Part shown: one piece after another, positions 2,150 through 10,309 of the stretch
Numbering within the stretch: the stretch's first letter is position 1
Layout of the letters: each line of letters starts with the position of its first letter
Translations under genes and position numbers: made by a program
Notes under the pieces: generated by a model
Told to the model about the DNA's origin: nothing
Seen by the model: the letters and a program-made list of their open reading frames with translations, nothing else
The model's database searches: none
Origin: a virus
Direction: 5' to 3' (one strand)
Length of the DNA stretch: 26,528 bases
Virus record (IMG/VR): IMGVR_UViG_3300042328_002244
Location: 1-26,528 of that record

Positions 2150-3427
2150 ATGAATAGGCGAGATTTTTTATATTCTGGTTTTGTAGGTGGATTGGGACTT
2201 TCAATGGGGGATATTTTAAAATTACAAGCTCAATCTTCTGTTTCTGCTAAAGCTCAATCGATTATTCACATTTATTTGCCAGGGGGCTTTGCCGCACAAG
2301 AAACTTTTGATCCGCATCCAAATGCACCTTCTGAATACAGAGGTTCATTAAAATCAATTAAAACATCAATTCCTGGCGTTCATTTTTCTGAACACTTGAC
2401 TAAGACAGCTAAAATTGCAGACAAACTTACCGTAGTTCGCTCAATGACGCACGGAGAGGCTGCGCACGAAAGAGGCACAACCAGTATGTTTACTGGCTAC
2501 CGTCCATCTCCAGCCTTACAATATCCTTCTTTTGGCTCTATTGTTTCTCACGAATTAAAAGATAGGAACAATTTGCCTGCTTATGTTTTTATTCCTACAA
2601 AAATAGCAAACAATGGAAATGATCCTGCTGGAACAGGTTATTTATCTCAATCATTTGGTCCTTTCAGTTTAGGTTCGGACCCCGCAGAAGAAAAATTTAA
2701 AGTTAGAGATTTAAGTTTGCCAGACAATGTTTCCGCAGAAAGATTTGCCAAAAGGAGAAGCATATTAGAAACAGTAGATAGTCATTTTAAATACATTGAA
2801 ACTAGCGACGATGTTGCTGCAATGGATGAATTTTACCAAAAAGCTTACGCAATGATTTCGTCTCCAGAAGCTCGCGAATCTTTTAATTTGCAAAAAGAAA
2901 CTACAAAAACAAGAGAGTTTTATGGAATGAATCAAGCGGGACAAAGGCTTCTCATGGCCCGTCGTTTAGTAGAAGCGGGAGTTCGTTTTGTCTCTGTGAC
3001 ATATGGAGGCTGGGATATGCACACCAATATCGCAGGAGGAATCGCTAAACAACTTCCTCCATTCGATCAAGCTTACGCAGCTTTAATTCAAGACTTGGAG
3101 CAAAGAGGAATGCTGGATTCAACAATTGTTTTAATTAGTTCTGAATTTGGTCGCACTCCCAAAATCAATAAAGATTCTGGCAGGGATCATTGGCCAAGAG
3201 TATTTTCTGTTGTTTTCGCTGGCGGAGGATTTAAACAAGGAATGGTTTATGGATCGTCCGACGCTACTGGATCGGACGTAGAGGACAATCCATTCACTGT
3301 AGAAAATTTAGCCGCAACGATGTTGAGTCAAGTTGGAATTGATCCAGAAAAGCATTTAATTGCACCTGGAGGTCGTCCAGCTTCAATCGTCTACAATGGC
3401 CAAATAGTTAAAGATATTTTAATGTAA
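2150..3427 (+). CDS. DUF1501 family protein A, Tat-exported (sulfatase/phosphatase-like fold)
   Basis: The 425-residue protein begins with a twin-arginine signal (RRDFL at residues 3-7, then a Gly-rich hydrophobic stretch to about residue 25). It should be exported folded by the host Tat system. It carries the DUF1501 landmarks in order: IIHIYLPGGFAAQETFDP near 38-55, KIADKLTVVRSMTHGEAAHE near 87-106, YGGWDMHTN near 285-293, SSEFGRTP near 328-335 and GRDHWP near 342-347. The family belongs to the alkaline phosphatase/sulfatase-like group and is abundant in Planctomycetota and Verrucomicrobiota; its biochemical role is not established. The length is normal and the frame intact. It follows the small Cys-motif gene by one nucleotide and converges on the 52-aa membrane protein gene with stop codons touching. 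Such a gene is unexpected in a phage. Family call is firm, function open. Confidence 0.93.
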   Translation: MNRRDFLYSGFVGGLGLSMGDILKLQAQSSVSAKAQSIIHIYLPGGFAAQETFDPHPNAPSEYRGSLKSIKTSIPGVHFSEHLTKTAKIADKLTVVRSMTHGEAAHERGTTSMFTGYRPSPALQYPSFGSIVSHELKDRNNLPAYVFIPTKIANNGNDPAGTGYLSQSFGPFSLGSDPAEEKFKVRDLSLPDNVSAERFAKRRSILETVDSHFKYIETSDDVAAMDEFYQKAYAMISSPEARESFNLQKETTKTREFYGMNQAGQRLLMARRLVEAGVRFVSVTYGGWDMHTNIAGGIAKQLPPFDQAYAALIQDLEQRGMLDSTIVLISSEFGRTPKINKDSGRDHWPRVFSVVFAGGGFKQGMVYGSSDATGSDVEDNPFTVENLAATMLSQVGIDPEKHLIAPGGRPASIVYNGQIVKDILM

Positions 3428-3586: not shown

Positions 3587-3993
3587 TAAGCGCAGTGGTA
3601 TAATTCTATTTTATAAATATGAGCCATTTTTGCTAAAATAGCTTTGTCGCATTTATCATAATAATTAATAAAATATATTCTCTTGACCCCATATGAAGCT
3701 AAATTCTTTAAGCAATCATAACAAGGGGCAAGTGTCATTGCTATATCAGGGCATTCATGAGGTTTAATATATCTTAGTAAATTTGTTTCAGCGTGAATAA
3801 CAAATTGCCTCCGCTTATCTCGATCCGACCAATCAATCTCTATTTTGGGTGGTGCTCCGTTATAACTAACGGCAGCAATTGATCCATCTTCTCTAATTGC
3901 GACCGCTCCAACTTTGCAATATGGATCTTCACTTCTTTTGGCTGCGACTTCAGCAAGTTGCAACCACCATTCAAGTTTATCAACTCTAGTCAT
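3586..3993 (-). CDS. dCMP/cytidine deaminase-family zinc enzyme
   Basis: The 135-residue protein has the zinc deaminase signature: HAE at residues 67-69 (His ligand and catalytic proton-shuttle Glu) and PCYDC at 90-94 (two Cys ligands). The N-terminal part (DPYCKVGAVAI, then SYNGAPP) matches the dCMP deaminase branch, which converts dCMP to dUMP, feeding dTTP synthesis during phage replication. The length is slightly short for phage dCMP deaminases, and some allosteric-site residues may be missing. Its ATG overlaps the stop of DUF1501 protein B by one nucleotide (TAATG), and its own stop overlaps the next start the same way. This makes a three-gene coupled cassette. Deamination of a free nucleotide is the likely activity; the exact substrate is inferred. 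Confidence 0.85.
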   Translation of the reverse strand: MTRVDKLEWWLQLAEVAAKRSEDPYCKVGAVAIREDGSIAAVSYNGAPPKIEIDWSDRDKRRQFVIHAETNLLRYIKPHECPDIAMTLAPCYDCLKNLASYGVKRIYFINYYDKCDKAILAKMAHIYKIELYHCA

Positions 3994-5348
3994 TAAAATA
4001 ATTCTTTAATTACGTTTCCGTATACGTCAGTTAGACGGAAAGGTCTTCCATTGTATGTGTAAGTTAACTTTGTGTGATCTAATCCCATTGCATGTAAAAT
4101 AGTTGCGTGCAAATCGTGGACATGGACTTTATCTTTTTCTGCTCTACCTCCAGTTTCGTCAGTTTCTCCATAACGCTGACCACCTTTAATTCCTCCACCA
4201 GCTAACCAAGTGGAAAAAGCTTTGCCGTTGTGATCGCGGCCTGGAGCGCCAGCAGAACCGCCTGCTGTTACAGTGCGACCAAATTCTCCTCCCCATATGA
4301 TCAGAGTGGAATCAAACAATCCTCTTTGTTTAAGGTCTGCGATAAGTGCCGCAATAGCTTGATCATGAGTCTTAGTGGTGCGAGGCATGGCTTCTTTAAT
4401 GTTTTCATGGTGATCATAGCCACCAATACTAACTTGAACAAATCTGACTCCTCTTTCTACTAACCTTCTAGCAATTAAAAGTTTAGATCCATTAGGATTT
4501 GCTCCATACATTTCTTTAATGTTTTCTGGTTCTTTGCTGATGTCGAAAACGTCAGTAGCTTCCATTTGCATTGAGAATGCAGTTTCAAAAGTTTCCATAC
4601 GAGCTTCAAATTGAGCATCGTATTGAACTGTATTTATATGATTTAAATTTAAAGCTTTTGTAAAATCTAATTGTCTTCTTTGTCTATCTAAAGACGAAAA
4701 TTGACTTCTAATATTATTAATTAATTGATCTGCCGTAGCTCCAGGCCTGTAGTCTATGTTACTGCCTTGGTACATTCCAGGGAGAAACGCACTTTGTCTA
4801 GATACGGAAGATCCGTTTAGACTAATAAAGCCTGGCATATTTTGATTTGTAGTGCCTAAACCATAAACAACCCAACTGCCCAAACTGGGTTTTGGAAGCT
4901 GTGGGCTTCCTGTGTGAAGAACTTTAGCTGCGATTCCATGATCTGGAATTTCAGCAAACATAGAATTAATTATTGCTATGTTGTCTGCGTGTTTGCTTAA
5001 TTCGGGCCATACTTCTGAAATTTCAATTCCCGATTTCCCAGACTTGTGAAACTCAAATGGCGAAGCTAATAATTCTCCATGATCCATTTTTAATCCATTA
5101 TTTTTCTGGAGAAATGGCTTGTAGTCAAAAGTGTCAACGCTAGATGGAGCGCCTCCAGCAAACAAATGAATGATTGCTTTCGCTTTAGTAGGAAAATGCG
5201 ATTGTTTTGGAAGTGTCGGAGAAACCGCCTCTGCAACGTATGGATTTAAACCAAACATTGAATAAAGAGAAAGCCCTCCGAATCCCAATCCAAAATTGGT
5301 CAAAAATTCTCTTCTGTTAAAAAATTTAGGATGATTGTTGCAGTTCAT
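3993..5348 (-). CDS. DUF1501 family protein B, Tat-exported (sulfatase/phosphatase-like fold)
   Basis: The 451-residue protein starts with a twin-arginine signal (NRREFLTNFG at residues 11-20, then a hydrophobic stretch to about 35, AEA near 39-41). DUF1501 landmarks follow: AIIHLFAGGAPSSVDTFDYKP near 59-79, NIAIINSMFAEIPDHG near 123-138, VSIGGYDHHEN near 307-317, IIWGGEFGRTV near 348-358, GRDHNGKAFSTWLAGGGIKGG near 369-389, and the typical ending VHDLHATILHAMGLDH ... YNGRPFRLTDVYGNVIKELF. This is the subfamily common in Planctomycetota and Verrucomicrobiota, where the gene often sits beside DUF1549/DUF1553 genes; no such partner is visible here. It is clearly different from protein A, so the two are not a recent duplication. 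It overlaps the preceding small Cys/His gene by 23 nt and is coupled to the deaminase gene. Confidence 0.94.
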   Translation of the reverse strand: MNCNNHPKFFNRREFLTNFGLGFGGLSLYSMFGLNPYVAEAVSPTLPKQSHFPTKAKAIIHLFAGGAPSSVDTFDYKPFLQKNNGLKMDHGELLASPFEFHKSGKSGIEISEVWPELSKHADNIAIINSMFAEIPDHGIAAKVLHTGSPQLPKPSLGSWVVYGLGTTNQNMPGFISLNGSSVSRQSAFLPGMYQGSNIDYRPGATADQLINNIRSQFSSLDRQRRQLDFTKALNLNHINTVQYDAQFEARMETFETAFSMQMEATDVFDISKEPENIKEMYGANPNGSKLLIARRLVERGVRFVQVSIGGYDHHENIKEAMPRTTKTHDQAIAALIADLKQRGLFDSTLIIWGGEFGRTVTAGGSAGAPGRDHNGKAFSTWLAGGGIKGGQRYGETDETGGRAEKDKVHVHDLHATILHAMGLDHTKLTYTYNGRPFRLTDVYGNVIKELF

Positions 5349-5526: not shown

Positions 5527-5548
5527 ACAATTATATTTACACAAAAAG

Positions 5549-5620
5549 ACCTCCGTGTTGGAATCGAACCAACATTCGCAGTTTTGCAGACTGCTCCCTT
5601 AGCCATTTGGGTAACGGAGG
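5549..5620 (-). tRNA. tRNA-Cys (GCA)
   Basis: The minus-strand RNA folds as a full cloverleaf. The acceptor is CCTCCGT/ACGGAGG, the D-stem CCC/GGG, the anticodon stem GCAGT/ACTGC with loop CTGCAAA (anticodon GCA), and the T-arm GTTGG-TTCGATT-CCAAC. The 3' CCA is not encoded. It is the last RNA gene of the cluster and is followed within about 25 nt by a protein gene. Confidence 0.95.
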
Positions 5621-5625
5621 AGGGA

Positions 5626-5697
5626 GCTACAGGTGAGAATTGAACTCACGAAAACCCGATTACAAATCGGGGCCATTACCACTCTGGTCACTGTAGC
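5626..5697 (-). tRNA. tRNA-Thr (TGT)
   Basis: The acceptor is GCTACAG/CTGTAGC, the anticodon stem CCCGA/TCGGG with loop TTTGTAA (anticodon TGT), and the T-arm GTGAG-TTCAATT-CTCAC. The D-arm is present but short, with imperfect pairing. The 3' CCA is not encoded. Only 5 nt separate it from tRNA-Cys. Confidence 0.93.
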
Positions 5698-5730
5698 AAT
5701 ACATAATCTTACACAAGATAGTGGAAATGT

Positions 5731-5811
5731 GGGTAGTGTTGGACTCGAACCAACGATGCCCGAAGGCGGAAGATTTACAGTCTTCTGCAATAGCCGCTAT
5801 GCGAACTACCC
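5731..5811 (-). tRNA. tRNA-Tyr (GTA), class II with long variable arm
   Basis: The acceptor is GGGTAGT/ACTACCC, the D-arm GCA...TGC, the anticodon stem GAAGA/TCTTC with loop CTGTAAA (anticodon GTA), and the T-arm GTTGG-TTCGAGT-CCAAC. The variable arm of about 14 nt (CGCCTTCGGGCATC) is the normal bacterial tRNA-Tyr form. The 3' CCA is not encoded. Confidence 0.95.
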
Positions 5812-5816
5812 CAAAG

Positions 5817-5891
5817 TGGCTCCAAGACCTGGACTCGAACCAGGAACAATACCGTTAACAGCGGTAGGCTCTACCATTGAGCTATCTTGGA
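5817..5891 (-). tRNA. tRNA-Asn (GTT) with encoded CCA
   Basis: The cloverleaf is perfect: acceptor TCCAAGA/TCTTGGA, D-stem GCTC/GAGC, anticodon stem TACCG/CGGTA with loop CTGTTAA (anticodon GTT), and T-arm CCTGG-TTCGAGT-CCAGG. The discriminator G is followed by an encoded CCA (5819-5817). Its 5' end marks the 3' limit of the structured RNA upstream. Confidence 0.96.
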
Positions 5892-5899
5892 ATAAATTT

Positions 5900-6210
5900 T
5901 CCAGTCTCTCCTAGAGTCACACCACTAATTTGAAGAGCTTTCGCCAATCAAACCTAGCGGCATGGAGCCACTAGCAGGTGTCGCAGGCTGAAATCACCCA
6001 AAGGCGATCTCGTTACTCCTTCCACACATGGTGGACGAGCTAATTAAAATCGTCTCTCCGATTAGTCACACAACTCTGATCGACCGTTTCCAGTCCTACT
6101 CCTCCGAGATTCCCAGAAGAGGCATGTGTCGCGTCTTAGCAGGATTTTACAGACCGCTACGTTCCAATTACGGTCTTACCTATTACCAGTGGGTTTGTGG
6201 TTACTAAGAG
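5900..6210 (-). ncRNA. candidate structured non-coding RNA between tRNA-Met and tRNA-Asn, about 305 nt, family not recognised
   Basis: No frame of useful length is open here and the base composition is clearly richer in G+C than the surrounding genes. On the minus strand the two ends pair in register. CTCT (6210-6207) pairs with AGAG (5909-5906), TAG (6206-6204) with CTA (5914-5912), CACA (6199-6196) with TGTG (5921-5918), CCACT (6192-6188) with AGTGG (5926-5922), and AAT (6184-6182) with ATT (5929-5927). Inner hairpins are AGACCG/CGGTCT (6176-6151), a GACTG-GAAA-CGGTC GNRA hairpin (6095-6082), TCCAC/GTGGA (6035-6021) and CTAGTGG/CCGCTAG (5974-5954). ACACATG (near 6129-6123) can also pair with CATGTGT (6030-6024), a possible pseudoknot. 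The 5' end lies directly at the tRNA-Met CCA, so tRNA processing enzymes could release it. I see no tmRNA tag frame or T-arm, no RNase P core motif and no clear group I intron core. Confidence 0.7.
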
Positions 6211-6286
6211 TGGTTGCAGGTACGGGATTTGCACCCATGATCTTCTGGTTATGAGCCAGACGACTTAACTACTTGTCCAACCTGCG
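6211..6286 (-). tRNA. tRNA-Met (CAT), initiator-type, with encoded CCA
   Basis: The anticodon arm is TCTGG-CTCATAA-CCAGA (anticodon CAT). The first acceptor pair is an unpaired C1xA72, and the D-stem has A11:U24; both are hallmarks of bacterial initiator tRNA and differ from elongator tRNA-Met. The end ...ACCTGCA-ACCA encodes CCA, as in E. coli initiator tRNA. Departures: the three G:C pairs normally closing the initiator anticodon stem are U29:A41, G30:C40, G31:C39, and the T-loop is TGCAAAT, with G where U55 is almost universal. The gene starts one nucleotide after the stop codon of the upstream 74-aa protein gene. Confidence 0.9.
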
Positions 6287-6817: not shown

Positions 6818-7486
6818 TCAAGCTATTTTAGTTCCGTTTGCCAGAAAAGTTTTAGACAAATCCCAATTGTCTTGGTCAATAGCTGTTAAAAAGTTTTGTG
6901 TTCTATATATTGTTTTTGTGAGAATACTGTTTGAATGCTTTTTAAGCCATTCGTGTCTTGTTTTAACGTAAGCTTTAATCCATTCTTTTTCGTCTCCACC
7001 CGAAGCTGGAACAGTTTCTGAAAATCTATTTCTTAAAAATTTTAAGATAGAACCAGAATGAATAAAAGAATCATAAATAACAAGCATTGACAAATTTAAT
7101 TTAAATCCATTTTTAGTAAACCATGCTTTTGCTGGCTCCCAATAATGAATATCAAAAAATTGGTCTTGCGTTCTTTGCATTATGGGATCTTTACTTGCTT
7201 CTTTTAAAATAGCAATGAGATTTTTGTCAGTAACAAGAGAACGGACTCCGATTTTGTCTTTATAAGGCTCGAACTTTTCCGCAATAGAGCCTTCATTTTT
7301 AATATACAAATTAACAAGCGCATTAAGATTTCCCCACTCGGTTGTTTGGCTTTTACCGTAGGTGATTTGCTTGATTCCGTTTGGTCCGTCTTCATATAAA
7401 GAAATACACCCATAATCTCCTTCGGGCGAACCACTTTCGAAGACGTTTACGATTTTTTGAATTTTATTTTTAATTTCTTCAGACAT
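6818..7486 (-). CDS. chitosanase (GH46)-like glycoside hydrolase, probable cell-wall lytic enzyme
   Basis: The 222-residue protein has the N-terminal pattern of the GH46/lysozyme-like fold found in phage hydrolases: VFESGSPEGDYG (Glu17), ISLYEDGPNG (Asp33), and ITYGKSQTTEWGNLNALVNLY at about 41-61. In GH46 enzymes a Glu in the first motif and an Asp about 16-18 residues later are the catalytic pair; E17 and D33 fit. A helical second half (DPIMQRTQDQFFDIHYW, LSMLVIYDSFIHSG) matches the rest of the fold. There is no signal peptide, so release would need a holin, or the protein could be virion-borne. In phages such proteins are usually annotated as chitosanase or endolysin; peptidoglycan may be the real substrate. 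Its start overlaps the end of the GMP reductase gene by 8 nt. Confidence 0.75.
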   Translation of the reverse strand: MSEEIKNKIQKIVNVFESGSPEGDYGCISLYEDGPNGIKQITYGKSQTTEWGNLNALVNLYIKNEGSIAEKFEPYKDKIGVRSLVTDKNLIAILKEASKDPIMQRTQDQFFDIHYWEPAKAWFTKNGFKLNLSMLVIYDSFIHSGSILKFLRNRFSETVPASGGDEKEWIKAYVKTRHEWLKKHSNSILTKTIYRTQNFLTAIDQDNWDLSKTFLANGTKIA

Positions 7487-8471
7487 ATCTAATCCTTATG
7501 TCCATTTTACACAATTTATATGGATCTGTAGTTCCAGCATAAGACATTGCTGATTTAATCCCTTGCTCGAATCTTTTCATTAAATCAATCATTGAGTCTT
7601 CAAAAACAAATAAAGTGGTTTGTTTCCCTTCCACGTATTTATCTTCGCCTTTATTTTGGGCGGAAGCTGAACCATAAAATAATTTATATTCTTTCTTTTC
7701 GCTTGAGTATGGAGCTGGACTATCAAAACACGAAGCAAAAAGAGAACCAACCATAATTAATGAAGCCCCAGCGTGTAATGCTTTGCAAACATCACCGACT
7801 TCCCTAATTTGACCGTCTGCAATGATTGGAACTTTTCTTGCGATTACTGAATTGTTCATTGCTTCAGAAATCTCTTTGACGAGGGAGTACATTGGAGTTC
7901 CAACTCCAGTTGTATTATAGGTAGTACAAGCGTATCCCATTGAAAGTCCAACCTTGATAATGTCTGCGCCCCAATCAACTAAATCTTTTGCTCCTTCTAC
8001 TGAACCCACATTACCTACAATTAGGATTGGCTTCTTCTTCCAAGGAAGAGAGTGAAAGTATTTGCAGATTTTTTTAACATTTAAATTATGTCCATGAGCG
8101 ACATCAATTGTTACATAGTGAACTGGAGCGCAAGAATCAGCAAGTTCTTCAAGAAATTGATAATCTTTTTCCTTCACCCCGACACTAATACTAACTAAAA
8201 GTTCGCCGTTTTTCTTTACGATCCAGTTCAAAATGTCTTCATAATCATAAAATCTATGAAGAATATAAAAGTATCCAGCCCTAGCTAATTCTTCTGCTTT
8301 CTCAAAAGAAATAGTACAAGCCATGTTTGATGGTAAAACTGGATTATTGAATAACCAATGAGAAGAACTAAACGACGGCAATTTAATCTTTGTAGAGAGT
8401 TCGTCTCTAGATAAGACTTCTGAATAATTTGGAACTAATATTACGTCTCTGTATGACAGTGCTAATTTCAT
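7479..8471 (-). CDS. GMP reductase / IMP dehydrogenase-family enzyme
   Basis: The 330-residue TIM-barrel protein begins LSYRDVILVPNYSEV as in GMP reductase and IMP dehydrogenase. ILIVGNVGS (about 150-157) and ADIIKVGLSMGYACTTYNTTGVG (about 169-191) form the nucleotide-phosphate loop with the catalytic cysteine at 182. VPIIADGQIREVGDVCKALHAGASLIMVGS (about 213-243) completes the phosphate site, and YGSASAQNKG (about 268-277) matches the flap region. The CBS pair typical of IMP dehydrogenase is absent and the length fits GMP reductase, which converts GMP to IMP using NADPH. The reverse assignment, a minimal IMP dehydrogenase, cannot be excluded without an alignment. It is coupled to the 84-aa gene by an ATGA junction. 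A phage copy would reroute purines during infection. Confidence 0.88.
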   Translation of the reverse strand: MKLALSYRDVILVPNYSEVLSRDELSTKIKLPSFSSSHWLFNNPVLPSNMACTISFEKAEELARAGYFYILHRFYDYEDILNWIVKKNGELLVSISVGVKEKDYQFLEELADSCAPVHYVTIDVAHGHNLNVKKICKYFHSLPWKKKPILIVGNVGSVEGAKDLVDWGADIIKVGLSMGYACTTYNTTGVGTPMYSLVKEISEAMNNSVIARKVPIIADGQIREVGDVCKALHAGASLIMVGSLFASCFDSPAPYSSEKKEYKLFYGSASAQNKGEDKYVEGKQTTLFVFEDSMIDLMKRFEQGIKSAMSYAGTTDPYKLCKMDIRIRYV

Positions 8472-9274: not shown

Positions 9275-10309
9275 ATGACAATTTCTAGAGATGAACTGAG
9301 TCTTCAAGCAAGAAGGGAGTTGGGAAAATCTTTTATTGAGTTGGAGCCAAGCGCAATTTTAGAATTTTATGAAATGTATTTTGATGTAGATCAAGAGCCC
9401 TTTAGATTCCATTCTGGAACAAATGGTTTAACAAAAGATATTATTTGGTCTGGAAAAAAATACTTCGCTTCAGCAATTGAAGTGGAAGGTTTTGAGGCAA
9501 ACATACTTGGCCGCTTGCCAAGACCCAAGGTGACAGTAGCAAATACGGATTCTATTCTTTCTAACATTCTAAGAGATTATTCTGATTTTAGAAATGGAAA
9601 ATTTGTTAGAATAAGAGTGTTTTTAAAAAATATAGATAACGAAAATTTTGATGAAAATCAAAATCCATTCGGCACTCCAAATCCTTTGAGTTATATTTCA
9701 AAGGAAAAATATATAGTTTCTCAAAAATTAATTGAAAATAAAGTATTGCTTCAGTTTGAATTAATCAGTCCGTTTGATTTGGAAAGTTTAGAAACTGCAA
9801 CTCGCGCAATTTATGGAAGATATTGTTATTGGCAATATAGGGGAACTGGATGTGGTTATCAAGGAGATTTAATTTGTCAGGAAAATGATAAAAATTTTTC
9901 TCAATTACCATTGGGTCGGTTAAAAATAAACTCAAGCAAATTTAAAAATGGAACATTTGAAGAAACAATTAAGCAATATTTATGGCTAGAAGATAAAAAT
10001 TATGTCAAAGGGGATATAGTTTATATAAGTAATATAGATTTTAATGGATTTAAAGATCCACCAAGAACTTGGTTTGTTTGCGTTGGTGATCATACTTCTT
10101 CAAGATTTTTAAGCCCAAATAAGTCGCCCGATCTTTGGCAAAAAGATGGTTGTTCAAAAACTATAAATGCTTGCAAAAAAAGATTTCAATCTGCAGTTGC
10201 TGTATATATTGGGGGTATTGAGTATTTACCAAATAATGATTTTGATACCGTAAATGGAATTTTGCCATTTGGCGGCTTCCCTGGAACCGATAGATTCCAA
10301 TATGAATAA
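9275..10309 (+). CDS. tail tip protein L-like (lambda gpL family, iron-sulfur)
   Basis: The 344-residue protein starts with the gpL-like N-terminal domain: SAILEFYEMYFD, FRFHSGTNGL, IIWSGKKYFASAIEVEGFE, LPRPKVTVANTD. Further on are the cysteines that in lambda gpL bind a [4Fe-4S] cluster. Here they are C184, C193, C201 and the pair C293/C300 in GCSKTINACKKRF, then the conserved ending LPFGGFPG. Between C201 and C293 lies an insertion (about 230-292) with KQYLWLEDKNYVKGDIVYI ... TWFVCVGDHTS ... SPDLWQ, which resembles a CBM5/12-type chitin-binding module. gpL closes the tail tube at the tip. No clear Shine-Dalgarno precedes the ATG. The next gene overlaps by 8 nt. This is the first gene of the tail-tip operon. 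Confidence 0.9.
   Translation: MTISRDELSLQARRELGKSFIELEPSAILEFYEMYFDVDQEPFRFHSGTNGLTKDIIWSGKKYFASAIEVEGFEANILGRLPRPKVTVANTDSILSNILRDYSDFRNGKFVRIRVFLKNIDNENFDENQNPFGTPNPLSYISKEKYIVSQKLIENKVLLQFELISPFDLESLETATRAIYGRYCYWQYRGTGCGYQGDLICQENDKNFSQLPLGRLKINSSKFKNGTFEETIKQYLWLEDKNYVKGDIVYISNIDFNGFKDPPRTWFVCVGDHTSSRFLSPNKSPDLWQKDGCSKTINACKKRFQSAVAVYIGGIEYLPNNDFDTVNGILPFGGFPGTDRFQYE

Follow-up and report, generated by a model that had tools for sequence, protein, structure and literature searches.

Two covarying RNA modules in phage tRNA clusters and beyond, with a possible role in transcription processivity

We describe two small RNA modules, A and B, from the gap between the tRNA-Met and tRNA-Asn genes of the window, i.e., the whole 26.5-kb virus record analyzed here, which carries genes for lambda-J-like and other long-tailed-phage tail proteins. 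The structured RNA in this gap is real, yet it is a string of independent modules and not one closed molecule of ~305 nt. Comparison of homologous sequences indicates that A and B are a real, new and comparatively supported phage RNA motif pair, which is more widespread and more modular than first thought. We tentatively suggest that both may be cis-acting processivity (antitermination-like) elements on the nascent phage transcript, a reading that we consider quite possible but short of probable.

Structured RNA between tRNA-Met and tRNA-Asn

The gap (5892-6210) is bounded exactly by tRNA-Met(CAT) at 6211..6286, the first RNA gene of the cluster, and tRNA-Asn(GTT) at 5817..5891, both on the minus strand (ARAGORN), and contains no usable minus-strand frame, as the preliminary description had stated. 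The remainder of the stable-RNA cluster (5548..5811, minus strand) consists of tRNA-Tyr (5729-5811), tRNA-Thr (5623-5697) and tRNA-Cys (5548-5620), all detected by ARAGORN and as Rfam tRNA matches. The elevated G+C content noted earlier was reproduced: 0.476 in the gap vs 0.327 in the whole window, with equally high values in 17 of 1311 same-size windows. The gap also folded better than its shuffles (-110.4 kcal/mol, z = -3.8), none of 100 being as low.

No relatives of the window were found by blastn among 50,697 cultured phage records. Its tRNA-Met (6211-6286, minus strand) has an initiator-tRNA-like C1-A72 mismatch. Elsewhere, two DUF1501 proteins (2150-3427, plus strand, and 3993-5348, minus strand) lie on either side of a deaminase gene, an unusual cargo, and a GH46 (chitosanase-type) protein and an IMPDH/GMP-reductase-like gene at 6818-8471 (minus strand) are probably auxiliary phage genes.

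Read along the minus strand, positions 5901-6211 contain one module A followed by two copies of module B, with a two-hairpin linker between the B copies. Module A (~79 nt, 6132..6211) abuts the encoded CCA of tRNA-Met and was detected by covariance model R1 with 92.5 bits (E 1.3e-22); its structure is supported by covariation in 23 homologues. It is closed by P1 (6203-6209 with 6134-6140), within which lie P2 (ACCA/UGGU), then an inner AGG/CCU helix, and P3 (6171-6175 with 6152-6156), which is capped by a conserved GUAAUUGGAANGUAGC. The first B copy, B1 (6049..6136), scored 51.8 bits with model R2 (E 4.6e-11) and was also supported by pair counts. Its P1 (ACACA/UGUGU) surrounds two covarying hairpins, one of them GNRA-capped, and a P2 hairpin, AUCG-GAGAGA-CGAU, follows 3' of P1. 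The linker (5989..6048) contains two strong predicted hairpins and reached a z of -3.84 alone. In the second copy, B2 (5901..5988; R2 52.3 bits, E 3.3e-11; pair counts), P1 (ACACC/GGUGU) surrounds a GUGGCUCCAUGCCGC-type hairpin and a second hairpin, with the P2 hairpin CUAG-GAGAGA-CUGG again 3' of P1; tRNA-Asn starts 9 nt past its end. Beyond these two copies, model R2 detected no further module B in the 26.5 kb of the window.

Several of the internal hairpins that had been predicted earlier, including a GAAA-capped one in B1, thus proved real and covarying. The proposal that the segment is a single RNA closed by its own ends did not hold. Pairing between the two ends is present in the minimum-energy fold of the window sequence alone, but it showed no covariation: end complementarity was 6.56 of 7, compared with 6.59 for ends shuffled among loci in a small, de-duplicated set. 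It also competes for its bases with two local, covarying helices, namely P1 in A and P2 in the final B copy; the local comparison rests on the covariation of module A, the end-pairing script having mis-located the local 3' strand in three loci. Because end-to-end pairing was not accompanied by covariation and because A and B occur independently of each other, one closed ~305-nt RNA was rejected.

The independence of the modules was evident among relatives fetched via the neighboring DUF1501 gene, in which blocks were present or missing from one to the next. One relative (L011) retained only the first ~80 nt, with a long closing stem that differed in sequence while pairing was maintained, and in two others (L008 and L003) the later block was repeated. 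Scanning IMG/VR with conserved strings of each block yielded 55 and 75 stretches; both blocks were no more than 1.5 kb apart in 23 stretches, and many of the remaining were chance in-gene matches.

The earlier suggestion of a new phage RNA class was borne out insofar as the segment is structured, lies outside every Rfam family and has covarying helices in homologues, both in A and in B; what had been taken for one RNA is, however, a set of modules. Neither of the outcomes that had been named as refuting it, a match to a known family or an absence of covariation pointing to tRNA remnants, was observed. With Rfam 15, the whole window gave no family for the segment, only tRNAs and chance matches, and the same was true of positions 5860-6260 at E <= 10, where nothing was found besides the flanking tRNAs and chance matches. 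Rfam 15 also gave no match at eight bacterial B loci (E <= 1) or at ten phage loci (gathering score). As had been reported, there was no match to tmRNA, RNase P RNA or a group I intron (ARAGORN for tmRNA; Rfam covariance models). Searches of the open-access literature, by sequence and for put-like RNAs, revealed no prior description, although motifs published elsewhere without an Rfam entry are possible.

Module A

Across 23 distinct homologues aligned over 82 columns, the structure of module A was paired in 97.6% of cells, and nine pairs were altered on both sides. The covariation score was 0.369, compared with 0.130 for shuffled alignments and no more than 0.092 for slid controls. Unaided, RNAalifold recovered P1, P2 and P3 and missed the AGG/CCU helix. 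P2 and the AGG/CCU helix are invariant in the homologues and, since they never vary, are neither supported nor refuted by covariation.

According to model R1, 16 of 18 phage records (28-227 kb) contained exactly one A. The RNA gene directly upstream was tRNA-Met in 16 of 28 loci, and nine of the 28 had none; these counts were corrected by hand for the window and L045, where a tRNA-Met abutting A had been missed by the script. Within tRNA/tmRNA clusters, A lies toward the 5' side (mean relative rank 0.23; P = 0.0035 when the window is scored as lacking an upstream RNA gene). The view that the segment belongs to gaps between tRNAs was not supported. A stands alone before tmRNA in L025, L060 and L063, and B occurs in one to four copies in many phages and prophages with no tRNA nearby. 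In the three tmRNA loci, a conserved extended -10 promoter-like site, TGGTATAAT, is present ~40 nt upstream of A, and the order is TGGTATAAT, a hairpin with a T-run, A and tmRNA (the tmRNA of L060 was read from the sequence). Judged by this order, A is in a leader position there. In a further record (G014), A and B are 45 kb apart.

The surroundings of A contained additional elements. In some phages, a further conserved and structured block, GGGAAAAAGCUGGAGYRAGCCG...CAAGUCGCGGGUAAACUUGUUAG, is situated between tRNA-Met and A (~700-900 in L034, ~5270-5450 in L037 and 5586-5700 in L015) and is apparently a third module. A different hairpin, GCCUUGAGAUCCCUUCC...GAGGCCUCAAGG, fills the same space on the reverse strands of L032 (~9490-9540) and L087 (~1650-1700). 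In addition, positions 247-886 of L025 contain a phage tmRNA followed directly by a group I intron (RF00028) that appears to interrupt a tRNA-like gene.

Module B and its distribution

The core of module B can be written as GCGACACC-(interior)-GGUGUGAC-NNNN-GAGAGA-NNNN, in which P1 (ACACC/GGUGU) is accompanied by a short hairpin, P2, whose GAGAGA loop hardly varies. The interior is variable, with two covarying hairpins in one subtype, and the minimal form is 43 nt long. In 28 full-length sequences, 99.6% of cells were paired, and the covariation score was 0.464 vs 0.117. When 128 model hits were aligned by fitting to the structure, the 120 distinct sequences among them remained 97.8% paired (covariation 0.414 vs 0.129 shuffled); across the 128 hits, P1 changes from A-U to G-C and from C-G to A-U, and P2 varies freely. 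A second variant with P1 ACGCC/GGCGU was observed 3' of the first in L071, L073, L077 and L079 (23-29 bits), which suggests that the family extends beyond the reach of model R2.

Module B is found mostly between genes in many unrelated phages, prophages and plasmids. Clusters of tRNA genes contain one to four copies, and in 18 phage records examined B hits were concentrated either around the tRNA/tmRNA genes or immediately 3' of a head gene. Two unrelated families of major head protein genes (phrog_1328 and phrog_371) have B directly 3' of them, in some cases as two to four tandem copies, and B also occurs upstream of replication-initiation or primase genes. Among bacterial contigs with the B pattern outside tRNA clusters, a clear B was present in approximately 13 of 17, and a second IMG/VR scan for B returned 92 stretches. 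By a crude open-frame analysis, a gene lay downstream of B on the same strand in 52 of 62 cases; by the same analysis, 38 of 65 B sites fell inside some frame of at least 40 codons, and the intergenic assignment of B therefore rests mainly on annotated records.

Several individual occurrences were informative with regard to position. A B of 26.4 bits is present at L247 5965-6020, within the left-operon leader (895 nt) of a Rac-like prophage of E. coli UPEC85, which was the only B-bearing genome in a blastn search of 5,426 E. coli genomes. In the HK97-like Morganella phage IME1369_02 and Providencia phage PSTRCR_117lys, B lies between lysis and HNH/terminase genes, and a terminator-like hairpin occurs just 3' of it. 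In Pseudomonas phage Itty13, it precedes the terminase genes, and the gene on its upstream side is divergent. B is also carried by plasmids, which are probably phage-plasmids. Neither the full segment nor A or B queries of the tRNA type had a convincing blastn match among cultured phages; a prophage-type minimal B query gave partial matches.

Two other assignments of B were considered. A class-wide search of bacterial genomes, of limited sensitivity, detected B in two of 369 genomes, one being the query genome, and at that sensitivity B was rejected as a common bacterial-genome RNA. In L135, B follows a Mu-type head gene, and the Mu-gpT-DE motif was therefore suspected; there was no Rfam match at this locus.

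Discussion

The observations from which this proposal starts are that the segment is modular, that its secondary structures covary and that B recurs in many unrelated elements; the polymerase target of A and B and their effect on it are inferred. In the proposed mechanism, A and B would fold co-transcriptionally, and their target would be the host RNA polymerase during elongation or a host factor associated with it. Transcription might thereby be kept processive across untranslated or terminator-containing stretches such as tRNA/tmRNA clusters, long leaders and the gaps after capsid genes. The presence of B, in sense orientation, across phages that share little else suggests a cis element read by something common to all hosts, and the variety of unrelated phages points to a target in the host and not to a phage-encoded partner. 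Leaders, post-capsid gaps and tRNA clusters are all exposed to termination, which favors a role in processivity, and the leader positions of A (tmRNA) and of B (Rac-like, HK97-like and Itty13) were counted for it. Counted against it was the place of A after tRNA-Met, which is not at a promoter and not where a leader element must lie. So was the lack of an R2 match to HK022 put, the only RNA-only antiterminator that was compared. Downstream of B, terminator-like hairpins showed no significant enrichment (they were present at 9 of 63 sites, vs 8 of 63 upstream and 7% of random windows). A more specific form of this proposal is more doubtful: A and B may found new phage RNA classes whose direct target is the host RNA polymerase, with no phage protein required and with modular strings carrying transcription through tRNA/tmRNA operons and polar stretches, as a widespread RNA-only antitermination unrelated in sequence to put.

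A different explanation, which we regard as unlikely, though the strongest of the alternatives, is that A-B-B is a stable, trans-acting, discrete RNA that RNase P and tRNA 3'-end maturation free from its tRNA precursor, with a mode of action like that proposed for GOLLD or ROOL. Such release of A-B-B is possible: in many loci A begins 0-3 nt past the encoded CCA and the last B stops a few nt short of the next tRNA. The extensive structure of A-B-B is consistent with this explanation, and GOLLD and ROOL are likewise found near phage tRNA islands (PMC12286853). However, A and B are found separately, their copy number and spacing vary, the closing helix of the whole unit lacks covariation, and B is present in mRNA intergenic regions with no tRNA for its release.

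Somewhat less likely still, A and B could be stability or processing elements of mRNAs or precursors (an exonuclease barrier, or a site recognized by an RNase or an RNA-binding protein of the host) and would then adjust transcript abundance near strongly expressed units, e.g., capsid genes and tRNAs. The position of B after capsid genes suits mRNA stabilization as well as it suits processivity: B stands directly 3' of head genes of two unrelated families, sometimes in tandems of two to four, and its invariant GAGAGA loop sits on a covarying stem. On the other hand, positions before the first gene of an operon (Rac-like E. coli, Itty13 and A near the tmRNA promoter) need no 3' protection, and the stems are short for RNase III.

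We consider it improbable that B is the binding site of a phage-encoded protein, i.e., a boxB-like hairpin recognized by an N-like antiterminator or by a regulator. Such a site would fit the tandem copies and the small hairpin, whose 6-nt purine loop is invariant and whose stem covaries, but a shared protein would be required across tRNA-rich long-tailed, Mu-like, HK97-like, SU10-type and Rac-like phages and plasmids, and we know of no protein common to all of these. Finally, the modules can hardly be decayed tRNAs or divergent members of a known family (tmRNA, RNase P RNA, group I intron, T4 rnaC/rnaD or HK022 put). Location in a tRNA cluster is the sole point in favor; against it, covariation is strong and supports a fold unlike that of tRNA, Rfam gave no match at E <= 10, and models R1 and R2 had no match in T4 rnaC/rnaD or HK022.

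Module B thus appears as a compact, strongly covarying motif, absent from Rfam 15, that is common to many unrelated phages, prophages (one of them in E. coli) and plasmids. If B is indeed a cis-acting transcription element, RNA-only control of polymerase would be common in phages and not a peculiarity of HK022, and this would suggest how transcription of long, untranslated phage tRNA/tmRNA clusters proceeds despite Rho. If B instead acts in trans or stabilizes RNA, it is still a phage RNA class that is new, whose structure is defined and which can be annotated with covariance models.

Comparison with known systems

GOLLD and ROOL, two large and structured RNAs without an assigned function, are likewise located near the tRNA islands of phages (PMC12286853). 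GOLLD env-38 lies downstream of a Met-tRNA, much as A follows tRNA-Met. However, GOLLD exceeds 800 nt in many members, whereas A and B are small, repeated units, B having no fixed association with tRNAs; both GOLLD and ROOL are in Rfam, and their models gave no match in the window or at the ten phage loci. The T4 rnaC and rnaD RNAs (species 1 and 2) are similar in being stable RNAs of unknown function within a phage tRNA cluster. Models R1 and R2 had no match in the T4 tRNA region (L120), and homology to rnaC/rnaD was rejected.

The boxA element is a short linear element bound by NusB/NusE in rRNA operon leaders. The role proposed here for A and B, polymerase processivity on untranslated stable-RNA operons, resembles that of boxA-type leaders; boxA is linear, whereas A and B are structured.

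HK022 put RNAs bring about factor-independent antitermination via the beta' zinc-binding domain (PMC9378689). The two-hairpin layout and leader positions led us to suspect B of being a put homologue, which was rejected since model R2 had no match in the HK022 genome (L138); a pattern search of the HK022 leaders likewise revealed no B-like site. B also differs in its stems of 5 and 4-5 bp, its GAGAGA loop, its tandem copies and its additional occurrence after capsid genes. Nevertheless, put is a two-stem-loop phage RNA of operon leaders, and the B of the Rac-like prophage lies in the left-operon leader, as putL lies near PL. With regard to function, put may be considered the closest model for B.
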